Assembly: GCF_002932875.1 (NCBI RefSeq)
Contig: NZ_PSWS01000058.1
Coordinates: 224,415-288,414 of the forward strand
From: Rathayibacter tritici
Lineage (GTDB): Bacteria > Actinomycetota > Actinomycetes > Actinomycetales > Microbacteriaceae
Direction: 5' to 3'
Length of the DNA stretch: 64,000 nt
The notes beneath the pieces were generated by a model. It saw only the letters and a list, made by a program, of their open reading frames with translations. It was not told where the DNA came from and searched no databases. This document shows positions 840-43,544 of this stretch, piece by piece; position 1 is the stretch's first letter, and each line of letters opens with the position of its first letter. The position numbers and the translations under genes were made by a program.

Positions 840-3761
<2,922 letters not shown>

Positions 3762-3767
3762 TCCGAA

Positions 3768-3773
3768 AGTGTA
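3768..3773 (-). promoter_or_regulatory. Candidate -10 box of a leaderless uvrA promoter
   Basis: TACACT on the minus strand, six bases before the GTG start. Transcription starting about 7 nt after the box would begin at the start codon itself. No good -35 hexamer is visible. Confidence 0.5.
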
Positions 3774-3853
3774 TGCGGAGCCACCGACATCGCCCGAGGC
3801 GTTCGCTGGGCGCTGATCCGCCGGTCCCTCCCCTTGCCGATCAGCGCTCTCGA

Positions 3854-5920
3854 TCACGACAGGTGGCCGGCCTTCTCCATCTGCCGCAGCTCGCGCTTGA
3901 GCTCCTGGACCTCGTCGCGCAGCCGGGCCGCAAGCTCGAACTTGAGCTCGCCCGCCGCCTGGAGCATCTGACCATTGAGGTCCGCAATGATCGCCTCCAG
4001 GTCGTTGCCGCCGTTGGCCGCGAGTCCCTGCCGGCGCAGGTTGGGCGTAGGACTCTTCTTCTTGGAGTCGCGGCCGGCGAGCAGCTTGGCGGTATCGGCC
4101 CCCTCACGGGCGAGGGCGTCGGTGATGTCGGCGATCTTCTTGCGCAGCGGCGTCGGGTCGATGCCGTGGTCGAGGTTGTAGGCGACCTGCTTCTCGCGCC
4201 GGCGGTCGGTCTCGTCGATCGCGAGTCGCATCGAGTCGGTCACCTTATCGGCGTACATGTGCACCTCGCCCGAGACGTTGCGGGCAGCGCGGCCGATGGT
4301 CTGGATGAGCGACGTCGACGAGCGGAGGAAGCCCTCCTTGTCGGCGTCGAGGATCGCCACGAGCGACACCTCGGGAAGGTCGAGACCCTCGCGCAGCAGA
4401 TTGATGCCGACGAGGACGTCGTACACCCCGGCGCGCAACTCCGAGAGGAGCTCGACTCGGCGCAACGTGTCGACGTCCGAGTGCAGGTACCGCACGCGAA
4501 CGCCGGCCTCGGTGAGGAAGTCGGTCAGCTCCTCCGCCATGCGCTTGGTCAGCGTCGTGACGAGCACCCGCTCATCGCGCTCGGTGCGACGCGTGATCTC
4601 CTCGAGCAGGTCGTCGATCTGGCCCTTGGTCGGCTTGACAACGATCTCGGGATCGATCAGTCCGGTGGGGCGGATGATCTGCTCGACGATGCCGTCGGCG
4701 ATCCCCATCTCGTAGCGACCGGGGGTCGCCGAGAGGTAGACCGTCTGGCCGACGCGAGACGTGAACTCCTCCCACTTCAGCGGGCGGTTGTCCATCGCCG
4801 AGGGCAGACGGAAGCCGTGCTCGACGAGGGTGCGCTTGCGAGAGGCGTCGCCCTCGTACATCGCGCCGATCTGCGGCACAGTGACGTGCGACTCGTCGAT
4901 CACGACAAGGAAGTCGTCCGGGAAGTAGTCGAGCAGACAGTGCGGGGCCTCGCCCGACTCGCGGCCGTCGATGTGCCGGGAGTAGTTCTCGATGCCCGAG
5001 CAGAAGCCGATCTGCTGCATCATCTCGAGGTCGAAGGTGGTGCGCATCCGCAGCCTCTGAGCCTCGAGGAGCTTGTTCTGCTTCTCGAGGTCGGCCAGAC
5101 GTACCTCGAGCTCCTGCTGAATAGTGTCGATCGCCCGATGCATGACGTCCTGGCTGGCGACATAGTGCGAGCCGGGGAACACCGAGACCGACTCGAGCTT
5201 ACGGACGATGTCGCCGGTGAGCGGATGCAGTGTGTACAGAGCCTCGATCTCGTCGCCGAACATCTCGATCCGGATCGCGAGTTCCTCGTACATGGGGATG
5301 ATCTCGATCGTGTCGCCCCGCACCCGGAAGGTTCCCCTGGCGAAGTCGACGTCGTTCCTGGCGTACTGCATCGAGACAAACTTGCGGATGAGGCGGTCGC
5401 GGTCCACGCGCTGGCCCACCTGGAGCGCCACCATCGCCTCGAGGTACTGCTCGGGCTGGCCAAGGCCGTAAATGCAGGAGACGGTGGAGACGACGATCAC
5501 GTCCCGGCGGCTCAGGAGCGAATTGGTGGTGGAGTGCCGCAACCGCTCGACCTCGGCGTTGACCGAGCTGTCCTTCTCGATGAAGGTGTCGGTCTGCGGG
5601 ACGTAGGCCTCGGGCTGGTAATAGTCGTAATACGAGACGAAATACTCGACCGCATTGTTCGGGAAGAGTTCGCGGAACTCGTTGGCCAGCTGCGCGGCGA
5701 GCGTTTTATTGTGCGCGAGAACGAGAGTGGGACGCTGCACGGCCTCGACGAGCCACGCGGTGGTGGCCGACTTGCCGGTTCCGGTGGCGCCGAGCAGCAC
5801 GACATCGGTCTCGCCGGCGTTGATCCGAGCGCTCAGGTCGGCGATGGCGGCGGGCTGATCACCGCTCGGCTTGTACTCGCTGACGACCTCGAACGGGTGC
5901 ACGGCACGGGTTGGCTCCAT
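3854..5920 (-). CDS. uvrB: UvrABC excinuclease subunit B
   Basis: UvrB is the helicase-fold subunit that verifies damage and recruits UvrC. The 688-residue protein starts [20 protein letters not shown], as expected for the family. It shows Walker A GATGTGKS near residue 43, the beta-hairpin region [12 protein letters not shown], the DESH box, helicase motif QTIGRAARN and a C-terminal UVR domain ([16 protein letters not shown]) that binds UvrC. An in-frame extension of 55 codons upstream is rejected: it has no family similarity, and a TACGCT -10 box sits 7 nt before the ATG at 5920. The gene is followed by uvrA after 92 bp. Confidence 0.95.
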
Positions 5921-5927
5921 GATCCGA

Positions 5928-5933
5928 AGCGTA
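5928..5933 (-). promoter_or_regulatory. Candidate -10 box of a leaderless uvrB promoter
   Basis: TACGCT on the minus strand, seven bases before the uvrB ATG, so the transcript probably begins at or next to the start codon. It supports the chosen start. Confidence 0.5.
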
Positions 5934-5971
5934 GCCGTGACCACCGACACCGGGCTCGTCCTGCGCTGGGG

Positions 5972-6005: not shown

Positions 6006-6153
6006 GTTCGATTTGCAGGGGATACAGGCTCCGCGACGGCGCACAAGCGGAGGAGAGCGCTCCACGCGCGGGAAGACCTGCACATCGCACGCCTTCCTGC
6101 AGATCGGACGACGGCCCGGCGAGCGGACGGCGGCCCGGCGAGCGGTGCGGGTC
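6006..6153. repeat. 19-bp repeat array with inverted halves, uvrB-coaE gap
   Basis: One copy in A orientation (GTTCGATTTGCAGGGGATA, 6006-6024), a 34-nt gap, then about five successive 19-nt units in the opposite (B) orientation. The B units start at 6059, 6078 (CTGCACATCGCACGCCTTC), 6097 (CTGCAGATCGGACGACGGC), 6116 and 6135, and the last two are more diverged. The array runs to the coaE stop codon. The same repeat family occurs at 40.3 and 58.4 kb. Confidence 0.75.
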
Positions 6154-6748
6154 AGCGCGTCAGGCGCTCCCAGAGTGCGTCGGCCTGGGCGAGCGTCTCG
6201 TCAAGGGTTCCGGAGGCGTCGATCACGACGTCGGCGAGAGCCAGGCGCTCCTCGTCGCTCGCCTGCGAGGAGACGCGGGCGCGCGCCTGCTCCTCCGTCA
6301 TACCGCGCACCGCGACCAGCCGCTCGATCCGGGTCCGCTGCGGTGCCTGCACGACGACAACCTCGTCGAACTCCCGCGCACCGCGGCCCTCGGCCAGCAG
6401 CGGGACATCGTAGACGACCACGACGTCCGGATCCGCCGCGGCCGCCTCCGCGAAGAGGCGCTGCGAGCGGAGTGTCACCGCCGGATGGGTGATGGCGTTC
6501 AGATCGGCGCGCGCGACTGCGTCCGAGAAGACGATTGCGCCGAGGGCTGCGCGGTTGAGGGCGCCGTCGGAGCGGATCACAGCCGGGCCGAACCGCTCGA
6601 TGATTGCCGCTAGTGCGGGCTCCCCCGGCTCGACGACCTGCCGGGCGAGGACGTCAGCATCGACGATCACGGCTCCGTGCTCGGCGAGACGGCGGGCGAC
6701 GGTGGACTTGCCCGAGGCGATGCCTCCGGTGAGGGCGACGAGATGCAC
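6152..6748 (-). CDS. coaE: Dephospho-CoA kinase
   Basis: Last step of coenzyme A synthesis: ATP-dependent phosphorylation of the 3'-hydroxyl of dephospho-CoA. The 198-residue cytosolic P-loop kinase begins MHLVALTGGIASGKSTVARR, with the P-loop at residues 8-16, followed by DADVLARQVVEPG and the typical helical lid with RIERLVAVRGM. The length is normal. The GTG start at 6748 has a TAGGGT -10 box (6755-6760) 6 nt upstream, so it may have its own leaderless promoter between the rpsA terminator and the gene. It follows rpsA on the same strand, an arrangement common in Actinobacteria. The 19-bp repeat array touches its stop codon. Confidence 0.95.
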   Translation of the reverse strand: MHLVALTGGIASGKSTVARRLAEHGAVIVDADVLARQVVEPGEPALAAIIERFGPAVIRSDGALNRAALGAIVFSDAVARADLNAITHPAVTLRSQRLFAEAAAADPDVVVVYDVPLLAEGRGAREFDEVVVVQAPQRTRIERLVAVRGMTEEQARARVSSQASDEERLALADVVIDASGTLDETLAQADALWERLTR

Positions 6749-34048: not shown

Positions 34049-34849
34049 TCAGCGCTCGGCGCGCGTGCCCTCAGCGAGGCCGCGGGACGTCTCGGCGACA
34101 GCGGCCACCCCTCCGGATGCCAGGGCGCGCACCAGCGCGGAACCGACGATAGCGCCGTCCGCGTACGCGAGGATCTCGGCGACCTGCTCGCCGGTCGAGA
34201 TGCCCAGGCCGACGCAGGCGCTCTCGGAGCCGGCGACGCGGAGCCGGTCGATCAGTGTGCGCGCTGCGGAGTCGACGTCGGTGCGGGCCCCGGTAATACC
34301 CATCGTCGAGACCGCGTAGACGAAGCCGCGGCTGGAGTCGACCGCCTGGCGCAGCCGCGTGTCCGTCGAGGACGGCGCGGCCAGGAACACCCGGTCGAGG
34401 CCGAGGCGCTCGGACACGGCGAGCCACTCGGCTCCCTCGTCCGGGATCAGGTCGGGCGTGATCAGGCCGGAGCCGCCCGCCTCCGCGAGGTCGCTCGCGA
34501 AGCGCTCCACGCCGTACTGCAGCACGGGGTTGTAGTAGGTCATCACCAGAACCGGCACGTCGACGCGCGCGCGGATGCTGCGCACCGCTTCGAAGCCGTG
34601 CCGCAGGCGGAACCCGCCGGCGATGGCGGCCTGCGTCGCCTCCTGAATGACCGGTCCGTCCATCACAGGGTCGGAGTAGGGCAGGCCCAGTTCGATCGCG
34701 TCCACGCCGTTCTCGGCCATCGCGACCGCGGCGTCGATACTCGTCGGCAGGTCGGGGAAGCCGACGGGCAGGTAGCCGATCAGGGCGCCCGCGGCCTCCT
34801 CGTTGCGGCGCCGGACGGTCTCGGCGACGCTCGGCCCCCGACCACTCAC
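34049..34849 (-). CDS. trpA: Tryptophan synthase alpha chain
   Basis: Cleaves indole-3-glycerol phosphate to indole, which is channelled to TrpB. The 266-residue TIM barrel has the catalytic Glu in [20 protein letters not shown] and the Asp of YSDP, then [11 protein letters not shown] and the phosphate loop region [12 protein letters not shown]. The GTG start overlaps the trpB stop by 4 bp (GTGA), so the subunits are coupled in translation. The chain is of normal length and complete. Confidence 0.96.
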
Positions 34850-39856: not shown

Positions 39857-39966
39857 GGGAGGTCCTTCATGACTCGACGGCTGTTCGATGGGCGGCACGG
39901 TTCCTCGGGGAGCGTGCGGACGCGACGGCGCGGATCGACGGCGCACCCCGGCGAGCGGGGCGGTGC

Positions 39967-40230
39967 TCACAGATGCCGGTAGACGTCGGCCGTCGTCAGA
40001 CCCTTCGCGAGCATCAGCACCTGGAGGTGGTAGAGCAGCTGCGAGATCTCCTCGGCGGTGCGCTCGTCGCCCTCGTACTCGGCGGCCATCCACACCTCGG
40101 CGGCCTCCTCGACGATCTTCTTGCCGATGAAGTGCACGCCGGCGTCGAGCTCACGGACGGTACCCGATCCCTCGGGCCGGATGGCGGCCTTCTCGCCCAG
40201 CTCCGCGAAGAGGTCGTCGAAAGTTTTCAC
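39967..40230 (-). CDS. hisE: Phosphoribosyl-ATP pyrophosphatase
   Basis: Second step of histidine synthesis. An 87-residue all-helical MazG-like protein beginning [20 protein letters not shown], with the metal-binding [17 protein letters not shown] and [14 protein letters not shown]. It heads the his-trp run. The GTG start has no Shine-Dalgarno, but a TATAGA box lies 8 nt upstream, pointing to a leaderless mRNA. A large repeat array sits just upstream. Confidence 0.94.
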
Positions 40231-40238
40231 CGGGGAAG

Positions 40239-40244
40239 TCTATA
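40239..40244 (-). promoter_or_regulatory. Candidate -10 box of a leaderless hisE promoter
   Basis: TATAGA on the minus strand, eight bases before the GTG of hisE; it probably drives hisEGFI and the trp genes. The -35 region would fall near the end of the repeat array. Confidence 0.5.
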
Positions 40245-40292
40245 CGGCGGGCGGGACGGGGCCGCGTGGGCGCTGTGAGCGGCGTGCGAGGC

Positions 40293-40554
40293 GTGCGATG
40301 TGCAGGAGCCCGTCCGATTCGCAGGAGCCCGTCCGATTCGCAGGAGCCCGTCCGATTCGCAGGAGCCCGTCCGATTCGCAGGAGACCGTCCGATTCGCAG
40401 GAGAAGGTCGCCGTCACGCGTTCGTCATGCGGCAGAACCGGGCATCTCGCACGGATCTCCTGCACACCGCACGGAAGCCTGCACACCGCACGGAAGCCTG
40501 CACACCGCACGAAGGCCTGCACACCGCACGGGATCCTGCAGATCGGACGGCGTC
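40293..40554. repeat. Two opposed arrays of a 19-bp repeat, hisE-rpe gap
   Basis: This fills the 331-bp gap between hisE and rpe. Array A (40293-40406) has six 19-bp units, starting at 40293, 40312, 40331, 40350, 40369 and 40388. Three are identical GTCCGATTCGCAGGAGCCC; the first and the last two carry changes. After a 34-nt spacer, array B (40441-40554) has six 19-bp units at 40441, 40460, 40479, 40498, 40517 and 40536, mostly CTGCACACCGCACGGAAGC. The reverse complement of A, rotated, is CTGCGAATCGGACGGGCTC, so B is the same family inverted. There are no variable spacers, so it is not CRISPR. It ends 7 bp before the rpe stop. Confidence 0.9.
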
Positions 40555-40561
40555 CGCCGCC

Positions 40562-41230
40562 TCAGTGCCGGTGCAGGTGCGCGGTAGCCGTAGCGCGCAG
40601 GGCCGCGATGGCCTGCTCCGGGTCGTCGGCGCCGAAAACCGCGGAGCCGGCGACGAACGTGTCGGCCCCCGCCTCCGCCGCGATCTCGATCGTGCCCGGC
40701 GCGATGCCGCCGTCGACCTGAAGCCAGACGTCAAGTCCGGTGCGGTCCACGACGTTCCGCAGGGTGCGCAGCTTGGGCATCGTCTCCGCCAGGAACGACT
40801 GGCCGCCGAATCCGGGCTCGACCGTCATCACGAGGACCTGGTCGAACTCCGGCAGCAGGTCGAGGTACTCATCCACCATCGTCCCCGGTTTGAGCGCGAT
40901 GCCGGCGCGCGAGCCGATCTCGCGCAGGCGCCGCGCGAGAGCCACGGCGTCGCGTGCGGCCTCGGCGTGGAAGGTGACCGAATAGGCGCCGGTCTCGGCG
41001 TAGTCGGGCGCCCAGCGGTCCGGGTCTTCGATCATCAGGTGCAGGTCGAGCGGACGGGGCGACACGTCCTGCAGGCGCTGGACCATCGTCAGGCCGAAGG
41101 TCAGATTTGGCACGAAATGGTTGTCCATCACGTCGACGTGCACGAAGTCGGCTCCGGCGATCCGCTGCAGCTCGGCCTCGAAGTTCACGAAGTCGGCGGA
41201 GAGGATGCTGGGGTTGATCCGTGCGGACAT
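40562..41230 (-). CDS. rpe: Ribulose-phosphate 3-epimerase
   Basis: Interconverts ribulose 5-phosphate and xylulose 5-phosphate in the pentose phosphate pathway. The 222-residue TIM barrel has [17 protein letters not shown], the metal site [40 protein letters not shown] and [10 protein letters not shown]. The ATG at 41230 lies 6 nt after a TAGGCT -10 box (41237-41242), so it may be transcribed separately from rsmB as a leaderless mRNA. Its stop is 7 bp from the repeat array. Confidence 0.96.
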
Positions 41231-42642: not shown

Positions 42643-43544
42643 CCGAGCACCGTGCTGTCGCGCAGGCCCCGCGCCCAGGCGGCGCCCGGCATCGGAGTCT
42701 TGCCGGCGGGCTGGACGGTGACCAGCTCGATCGCTCCGTCCCCGGTGCCGACGAGCGCGCGTCCGGAGTGAAGGCGCACGCTGCCCGGAGCGAGATCCCC
42801 CTCCGCGGCGCGCACGGCCAGCACCTTCAGGCGCGCGCAGCCCACCGCGGTGGAAGCGCCGGGCTCGGGGGTCGTTCCGCGCACCAGCGCCAGGATCCGC
42901 GCGGTCGGCAGCGTCCAGTCGATCCGGCCGTCGGTCGCGTCGAGCTTGGGCGCGAGGGTCACCTCGCCGACCTGCGGGGTGGCGACGGCGGTCCCCCGTT
43001 CGAGTGCGTCGACCACGTCGAGGGTGAGGTTCGCGCCGCTTTCGGCCAGCTCCGCCAGCAGCGCGCCCGCGGTGCGCTCCCCCGCGTCGACGGGGAGTTC
43101 GGCGTAGACGTCGCCCGCATCGAGTTCGGCGACGAGCTGGAAGACGCTCGCGCCGATCCGCGTCTCCCCCGCCATCAGCGCGCGCTGGAGGGGAGCCGCT
43201 CCCCGCCAGCGCGGCAGCAGCGAGAAGTGCAGGTTGATCCAGCCGAGCCTCGGCACCGCCAGCAGCCGCTCGCGCACGAGCCCGCCGTAGGCGACGATCA
43301 CGCCCAGATCCGGGGTGAGCTCGGCGAGGTGGTCGGTCACCTCCTCGTCGAGCCGATTCGTGCGGATCACGGGGAGCCCCAGCTCCTCCGCCGCGACGGC
43401 GACCGGCGACGGAGTGAGCACGCGCTTGCGGCCCACCGGAGCATCCGCCCGGGTGACCACGGCGACGACCTCATGCGCGGAGGCGGCGAGGCCCTGGAGG
43501 GTCGGGACGGCCGCGGCGGGCGTACCGGCGAAGACGAGGCGCAC
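42639..43544 (-). CDS. fmt: Methionyl-tRNA formyltransferase
   Basis: Formylates initiator Met-tRNA using 10-formyl-THF. The 301-residue protein starts MRLVFAGTPAAAVPTLQGLA. It has the formyl-THF/catalytic motif INLHFSLLPRWRGAAPLQRA with Asn and His, IGASVFQLVAELDAGDVYA, and the C-terminal OB-fold domain with KTPMPGAAW. It lies between priA (17-bp gap) and rsmB (4-bp overlap), the usual actinobacterial order. Confidence 0.95.
   Translation of the reverse strand: MRLVFAGTPAAAVPTLQGLAASAHEVVAVVTRADAPVGRKRVLTPSPVAVAAEELGLPVIRTNRLDEEVTDHLAELTPDLGVIVAYGGLVRERLLAVPRLGWINLHFSLLPRWRGAAPLQRALMAGETRIGASVFQLVAELDAGDVYAELPVDAGERTAGALLAELAESGANLTLDVVDALERGTAVATPQVGEVTLAPKLDATDGRIDWTLPTARILALVRGTTPEPGASTAVGCARLKVLAVRAAEGDLAPGSVRLHSGRALVGTGDGAIELVTVQPAGKTPMPGAAWARGLRDSTVLG

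Follow-up and report, generated by a model that had tools for sequence, protein, structure and literature searches.

Among the dispersed repeats of bacterial genomes the REPs are the best known; they form stem-loops, and many are associated with a transposase. REPINs are REP doublets that form hairpins and go with a RAYT transposase (Bertels and Rainey 2011, PMC3116915), and the GTAG- and CGTC-tagged REPs, as presented in the accessible text of PMC3733652, are intergenic, lie mainly between convergent and unidirectional genes close to their 3' ends, and often have units in opposite orientation, with head-to-tail dimers negligible or under-represented. According to the same text the CGTC REP is a stem-loop with an 8-9 bp stem and a 4-5 nt loop, and the CGTC repeats have no dedicated transposase. 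A further type, a MITE of Porphyromonas gingivalis, is described in the accessible part of PMC4596501 as containing a minisatellite. The element of Rathayibacter analysed here has neither a detectable stem-loop unit nor a detectable RAYT.

The element lies between hisE and rpe in a stretch of 64 kb, which we call the window (G+C 70.7%). Two arrays with a 19-bp period occupy this gap; units follow one another head to tail in an arm, and the two arms point in opposite directions. Their unit is the 14-bp sequence CCTGCRNAYCGSAC, and units were counted with the conserved 14-mer CCTGCNNANCGSAC; those matching 11 of its 11 fixed positions were taken as intact, which gives six units on the minus strand and five on the plus strand, flanking a core of 57 bp. 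The features of the gap and its neighbours are as follows.

39967..40230, minus strand: hisE, phosphoribosyl-ATP diphosphatase, downstream of the element (NCBIfam NF001610, 157 bits)
40293..40401, minus strand: left arm, six 14-bp units CCTGC(GA/AC)ATCG(G/C)AC starting at 40293, 40312, 40331, 40350, 40369 and 40388, period 19, pointing outward towards hisE
40402..40458, plus strand: core between the arms, 57 bp, no intact units
40429-40446, reading against the hisE/rpe direction: the family's off-centre core motif GCGGnnGAAn... (GCGGCAGAACCGGGCATC), position read from the core sequence
40459..40548, plus strand: right arm, five 14-bp units starting at 40459, 40478, 40497, 40516 and 40535, period 19, pointing outward towards rpe
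40562..41230, minus strand: rpe, ribulose-phosphate 3-epimerase (NCBIfam TIGR01163, 256 bits)

The unit scan and the NCBIfam gene names confirm the inverted pair of 19-bp tandem arrays that a preliminary description had placed between hisE and rpe, and correct its figures of six units facing six across a 34-nt spacer. Only five right-hand units are intact, the supposed sixth at 40440 being a degenerate half, and the unit-free middle measures 57 bp; the earlier figures fit the counting of that half unit. Tandem Repeats Finder reported repeats at 40302-40403 (5.4 copies, 98% matches) and at 40459-40540 (4.3 copies, 90%), and about 13 bp separate the rpe stop codon from the element. With at most one mismatch allowed, the single-unit pattern matched the window 17 times (13 exactly), compared with 8.7 +/- 3.1 in shuffles; 2 of 100 window shuffles equalled or exceeded this number.

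The window also holds a second element of the same layout.

3854-5950: uvrB (NCBIfam)
6006..6148, no strand assigned: second element, in the uvrB-coaE gap (NCBIfam gene names and unit scan)
6152-6748: coaE (NCBIfam)

It consists of one minus-strand unit at 6006 (10/11), a 57-bp core (6020-6076), and intact plus-strand units at 6077 and 6096 followed by two degenerate ones. It is found as well in the orthologous gap of G001, the nearest Rathayibacter genome compared, and of G003; the preliminary description of the window makes no mention of it. The two real elements of the window score 22 and 21 of 22. Two weaker matches, one at 34111 within a coding region and one at 42761, reach 17 of 22, as do matches in shuffled windows.

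The hisE-rpe array is one copy of an interspersed non-coding DNA element specific to Rathayibacter. The preliminary description had named absence of the unit from the rest of the genome as what would refute it, and the unit does recur in related genomes: the full geometry, with units facing across exactly 57 bp, was found at 103 places in 11 of 15 Rathayibacter genomes, and its reversed control at none in all 15. These places number 23 in G001, 3 in G002, 18 in G003, 21 in G004, 6 in G005, 8 in G006, 2 in G007, 9 in G008, 4 in G009, 7 in G012 and 2 in G014, with none in G010, G011, G013 and G015. A two-unit pattern gave 28 matches in G001 (reversed control 0) and was present in 9 of the 15 genomes. 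Single units were over-represented in most of them, for example 80 vs 2 in the control for G001 and 47 vs 8 for G012, and stood at control level in G010 (2 vs 2) and G013 (2 vs 1).

Outside the genus the family was not detected. Among 398 Microbacteriaceae genomes, 10 of them Rathayibacter, the two-unit pattern matched 7, all Rathayibacter, and none of the 388 from other genera. Scanning a collection of 84,980 species yielded 29 stretches, 26 from Rathayibacter; the remaining three, from a Rhodobacteraceae MAG, Microbacterium oxydans and a Paraburkholderia MAG, gave no match to the facing geometry. The 57-bp geometry occurred once in 127 genomes of other genera (G125), which we take as chance.

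Across the family, the layout is n minus-strand 14-bp units, a core of 57 or 58 bp and n plus-strand units, with n from 1 to about 10 and a period of 19 bp. The mean number of units per element is 5.2 and the maximum on one side 10; a single unit per arm was seen in 12 of 91 elements. In loci not chosen by spacing (picked by the two-unit pattern or by rpe, with units scoring at least 10/12), 55 of the 62 minus-then-plus gaps measured 57 or 58 bp, the inverted conserved ends and preferred-length spacer by which REPINs and GTAG REPs are recognised: 45 gaps were of 57 bp and 10 of 58 bp; two measured 29 bp, and the remaining five measured 28, 56, 59, 60 and 220 bp. When all loci were counted, some of them picked by the 57-bp geometry itself, 88 of 115 gaps were of 57 bp and 13 of 58, and 8 further gaps equalled 57 plus a multiple of 19; 57 bp is three periods of 19. 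Gaps in the opposite, plus-then-minus order were scattered (n=26).

The arms grow and shrink by local duplication. The 4-nt linkers within an arm have a mean identity of 0.66 (n=503); the figure is 0.37 for linkers taken from the two arms of an element (n=182) and 0.32 for linkers paired at random. For the family, this bears out the earlier proposal that the arms were enlarged by separate duplications. Concordance between facing units was weak and confounded by genome-specific variants (S, 58 of 91 vs 47 expected; two-letter, 36 vs 25), and a pairing of facing units was not adopted. The longer arm is not tied to one side of the core motif (36, 33 and 11 equal). Separately, whole elements stand in tandem, three to four per gap, at three loci (L053 353-974, L050 3640-4390 and L054 3672-4068), in steps of roughly 145-235 bp and with some cores near-identical.

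The cores share sequence features. An ungapped alignment of 80 cores, oriented by best fit, scored 1346 vs 625 +/- 10 in 15 shuffles, and its common features are GGAT-like and ATCC-like ends and a GCGG at the centre (positions 28-31). A dyad, GAAnGCGCTnTC, has its centre at 39.5, roughly a helical turn away from position 29, the middle of the element. Two of its pairs covary (standard pairs 0.60 vs 0.43 expected, and 0.56 vs 0.35), having been picked from a screen of all column pairs. The dyad presumably resembles the operators of the LacI family. With respect to the genes, the direction of the core motif is weakly biased (28 of 39 against gene direction, p 0.009), and with respect to the replichores of G001 it showed no bias (7 and 6 vs 8 and 11, with the origin assumed at the contig start).

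Comparison of cores was restricted to those of 57 bp, with four near-identical copies set aside (three from the same locus, one from another genome). For 852 pairs from different loci within a genome the mean identity was 0.44 and the highest 0.74, against 0.31 for a shuffled baseline, and for 26 pairs from orthologous loci the mean was 0.57; the window cores are 0.84 and 0.81 identical to those of G001. In 17 of the 26 ortholog pairs, those with 57-bp cores, the same motif direction and identity of at least 0.5 (9 pairs were left out), motif positions agreed at 190 of 238, end positions at 85 of 102 and the rest of the core at 336 of 629. In ortholog pairs the fixed positions of the units were conserved at 0.98 (n=340), a figure inflated by the choice of elements by unit score, vs 0.56 for the variable positions (n=136). 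The pairs share genomes and are non-independent, the elements were selected by unit score and spacing, and the orientation was set by the motif itself; read within these bounds, the units, the core motif and the spacing appear to have been kept after an element settled at a locus, with the rest of the core having drifted.

Presence at a given locus is patchy. Between rpe and hisE the element is found in the window, G001, G003, G012 (twice) and G007; it is reduced to two units in G006 and decayed in G015, without recognisable geometry. Seven genomes (G008, G011, G009, G004, G002, G014 and G005) have only 39-47 bp between the flanking matches, too short for an element (the gap sequences were inspected for G008 and G011 only), and G010 and G013 have a wider, different arrangement. 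In G001 the element lies in a 355-bp stretch of the nusG-rplK gap, which is replaced in G009 and G011 by 58 bp with a terminator-type hairpin (read by eye). Since the geometry is missing from four of the 15 genomes and the element is absent from these seven rpe-hisE gaps and two nusG-rplK gaps, any function it has is dispensable. A different repeat (TGCTGGTCGAGTAGCCCCGCAGGGGCGTATCGAG type) was seen in G011 (L166, C2, about 569.5-569.9 kb) where G001, G003 and G004 carry the element.

G015 is decayed or empty at the four orthologous loci inspected. Its coaE-uvrB gap keeps one intact unit, one degenerate unit and a 56-bp core, nusG-rplK has a single unit, and one convergent locus is a 40-bp gap; at that last locus G009 has weak units around a 58-bp core. 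Such decay would fit the loss of a maintaining factor in the G015 lineage.

Elements prefer the 3' ends of genes. The 74 distinct gaps with an element, counted when both inner units scored at least 10/12, comprise 29 convergent, 37 codirectional and 8 divergent ones, vs 47, 200 and 85 among the remaining gaps of 40 bp or more in the same loci, a background that counts some regions twice (p about 1e-6). Genes were called with a purpose-made codon-usage caller checked on hisE and rpe, and from the 103 instances two that overlapped a called gene and two at a locus edge were left out. Of 42 elements in codirectional gaps, 34 were nearer to the upstream stop than to the downstream start. Any dispersed repeat subject to purging from promoters would be expected to show a preference of this kind.

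Elements occur throughout the G001 chromosome, and the neighbours identified are ordinary genes, rpe-hisE, coaE-uvrB, nusG-rplK, ftsY-smc, ispG and dxs among others. Pfam searches with 40 of the 58 proteins flanking elements in G001 returned mostly housekeeping and metabolic families, and eight had no match. Association with one gene family was rejected, as the recurring flanking families have one member per genome, which is expected of orthologs. A 284-aa protein encoded between two G001 elements (L078:4298-5152) had no Pfam match at 1e-10 and no NCBIfam match at 1e-8, and G012 likewise has an element between a dapA-like gene and a homologue of this protein (L046). Longer tandem repeats of about 100 and 170 bp occur in neighbouring gaps (L123, about 3650-4000; L147/L034, upstream of the element).

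Set beside the described systems, the element is best filed as a new interspersed repeat of REPIN/MITE-like type with iteron-like arms. It shares with REPINs, as these are characterised in the accessible text of PMC3116915, a pair of conserved inverted sequences, a spacer between them that is less conserved and of preferred length, and dispersal between genes; it differs in that its unit is no imperfect palindrome (only TGC...GCA matches, when S is C, and there is no GTAG at the end), each arm is an array of 1-10 units, and copies dispersed recently were not seen. With the tagged REPs, as far as the available text of PMC3733652 describes them, it has in common the intergenic 3'-end placement and opposite unit orientation, and it differs in that head-to-tail arrays are common and the 14-bp unit lacks a stem of their kind. 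In its minus-strand reading, GTSCGRTNYGCAGG, there is no CGTC-type stem of 8-9 bp with a loop of 4-5 nt, and of 232 outermost units 112 have G at position 15, the one that would complete CGTS. Like the MITE of the accessible part of PMC4596501, it is small, non-coding and bounded by terminal inverted repeats, here the facing units, and contains a tandem repeat; unlike in that MITE, the repeats form both ends, no target-site duplication was convincing, and the 40 of 58 flanking G001 proteins scanned included no parent transposon.

Searches for repeats of Rathayibacter, Microbacterium and Microbacteriaceae, in a literature represented by titles and the beginnings of abstracts, with subscription papers outside its coverage, found no description of the element, in agreement with the preliminary description, whose author knew of no named element so laid out; the available part of the R. 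toxicus genome paper (PMC5552033) describes CRISPR arrays and no such element.

These results favour a protein-DNA complex in which spacing is critical over a hairpin formed by RNA. Since a near-exact distance between facing sites is kept with no RNA structure between them, a protein complex touching the innermost units and the core dyad is the best explanation. In such a complex a putative sequence-specific protein would bind the outward-facing units, and a dimer, of the same or a second protein, would bind the core dyad one helical turn off centre, so that both arms would be held in one nucleoprotein complex of fixed geometry, which extra units on the 19-bp period would extend outward. With less confidence, and as a guess suggested by the placement between transcription units, the complex may serve as a boundary between them, whether as a roadblock, an insulator or a supercoil anchor. 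Also with less confidence, the family may first have spread in REPIN/MITE-like fashion, with a mobilising enzyme now lost or not recognised as the likely origin. Taken as a whole, this reading of a genus-specific element with a putative complex of fixed geometry, a boundary role and a mobile past is, in our judgement, moderately probable.

A purely selfish, non-autonomous MITE or REPIN is a competing explanation: the arms would be sites for a transposase, the fixed core would meet the needs of the transpososome, the 3' bias would result from purging of promoters, and the host would gain nothing. The REPIN-like architecture described in PMC3116915, the patchy presence with sites lacking the element at rpe-hisE, nusG-rplK and coaE-uvrB, the tandem duplications of whole elements, and an IS3-family transposase fragment situated some 270 bp away from an element in G001 (L080:3239-3631; NCBIfam NF033516, 80 bits with a cut-off of 160) are in its favour. 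Other results argue against it. A Y1/RAYT transposase (Y1_Tnp, PF01797) was found in none of the 15 Rathayibacter genomes, with a control positive in 5 of 14 known genomes, and we rejected the RAYT link. The search for target-site duplications over 116 elements was not convincing (best of 175 length/offset tests, z 3.1); the elements are old, and no near-identical cores occur at different loci of one genome, so no recent jumps are seen. The flanking G001 proteins scanned for a related transposon had no match to a mobile-gene family at E 1e-10. Finally, constraint persists at a locus after insertion, which a dead copy would not show. We therefore regard a purely selfish element as somewhat unlikely, if the strongest competitor of the protein complex.

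The preliminary description had proposed a long hairpin in RNA or a cruciform in DNA, and transcribed facing arms might in principle stop transcription or shield the upstream mRNA at its 3' end, a role proposed for REP/BIME sequences. The placement at gene 3' ends would agree with this, the window RNA folds much more stably than its shuffles (z -5.9; as single-stranded DNA, z -2.2), and the one Rfam match in 39900-40700, MIR918, falls on the window array at E 2e-4, far below the gathering score (35.2 bits vs 268). As the working form of the family, however, such a hairpin is not sustained. RNA structure was rejected for the family cores (mean z -0.25 and -0.18, with no pairs from RNAalifold), the linkers of facing arms are barely more alike than random ones, 12 of 91 elements have just one unit in each arm, and a loop does not need a near-exact distance of 57 bp. 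A terminator identity was likewise rejected for the window: no intrinsic terminator (GC hairpin followed by a T run) was found in 39900-40700, and the comparable terminator-type hairpin at G001 nusG-rplK (read by eye) stands beside the element, the hairpin being present without it in G009 and G011, so that the element does not replace the terminator there. An RNA-level role is accordingly improbable.

Direct repeats of 19-bp period resemble plasmid iterons, and the units could be chromosomal sites of a replication initiator of plasmid or phage type, or could act as a decoy that titrates it. The likeness lies in the short direct repeats and their period near 19 bp; the Rathayibacter arrays face each other in pairs, are chromosomal and occur at dozens of loci, and those of G001 are scattered across its chromosome. 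The window element had no plasmid match at E 0.01 and 19 phage records at E up to 1, one G001 element had five plasmid records with a best E of 0.1, the two-unit pattern had no match in viral contigs, and the 7 matches of the geometry pattern there are taken as chance. With no convincing match to plasmid or phage, and no replication initiator among the 40 of 58 G001 neighbour proteins scanned, this origin was rejected and the iteron explanation is very improbable. A meaningless minisatellite made by replication slippage, to which the local duplication of arms, mutated units included (G001 rpe-hisE), would lend itself, is contradicted by the counts, with the same unit at dozens of unrelated loci in facing orientation, at fixed spacing and around a conserved core motif, and can practically be dismissed.

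The protein complex of fixed geometry can be taken one step further, in a form that we consider speculative and rather doubtful. The elements might be dispersed clamp sites at gene ends, on which a genus-specific protein would assemble from a fixed centre outward in both directions along the iteron-like arrays, giving tunable boundaries whose strength would be set by the fast-changing number of units. We know of no described element of this kind in a bacterial chromosome.

The near-exact distance between facing arrays has been kept although the sequences have diverged widely, so there must be something that reads it. Identifying the protein would show whether bacteria have tunable boundary sites at the ends of genes, or reveal an unrecognised mobilising enzyme, and the variable number of units may serve for strain typing.
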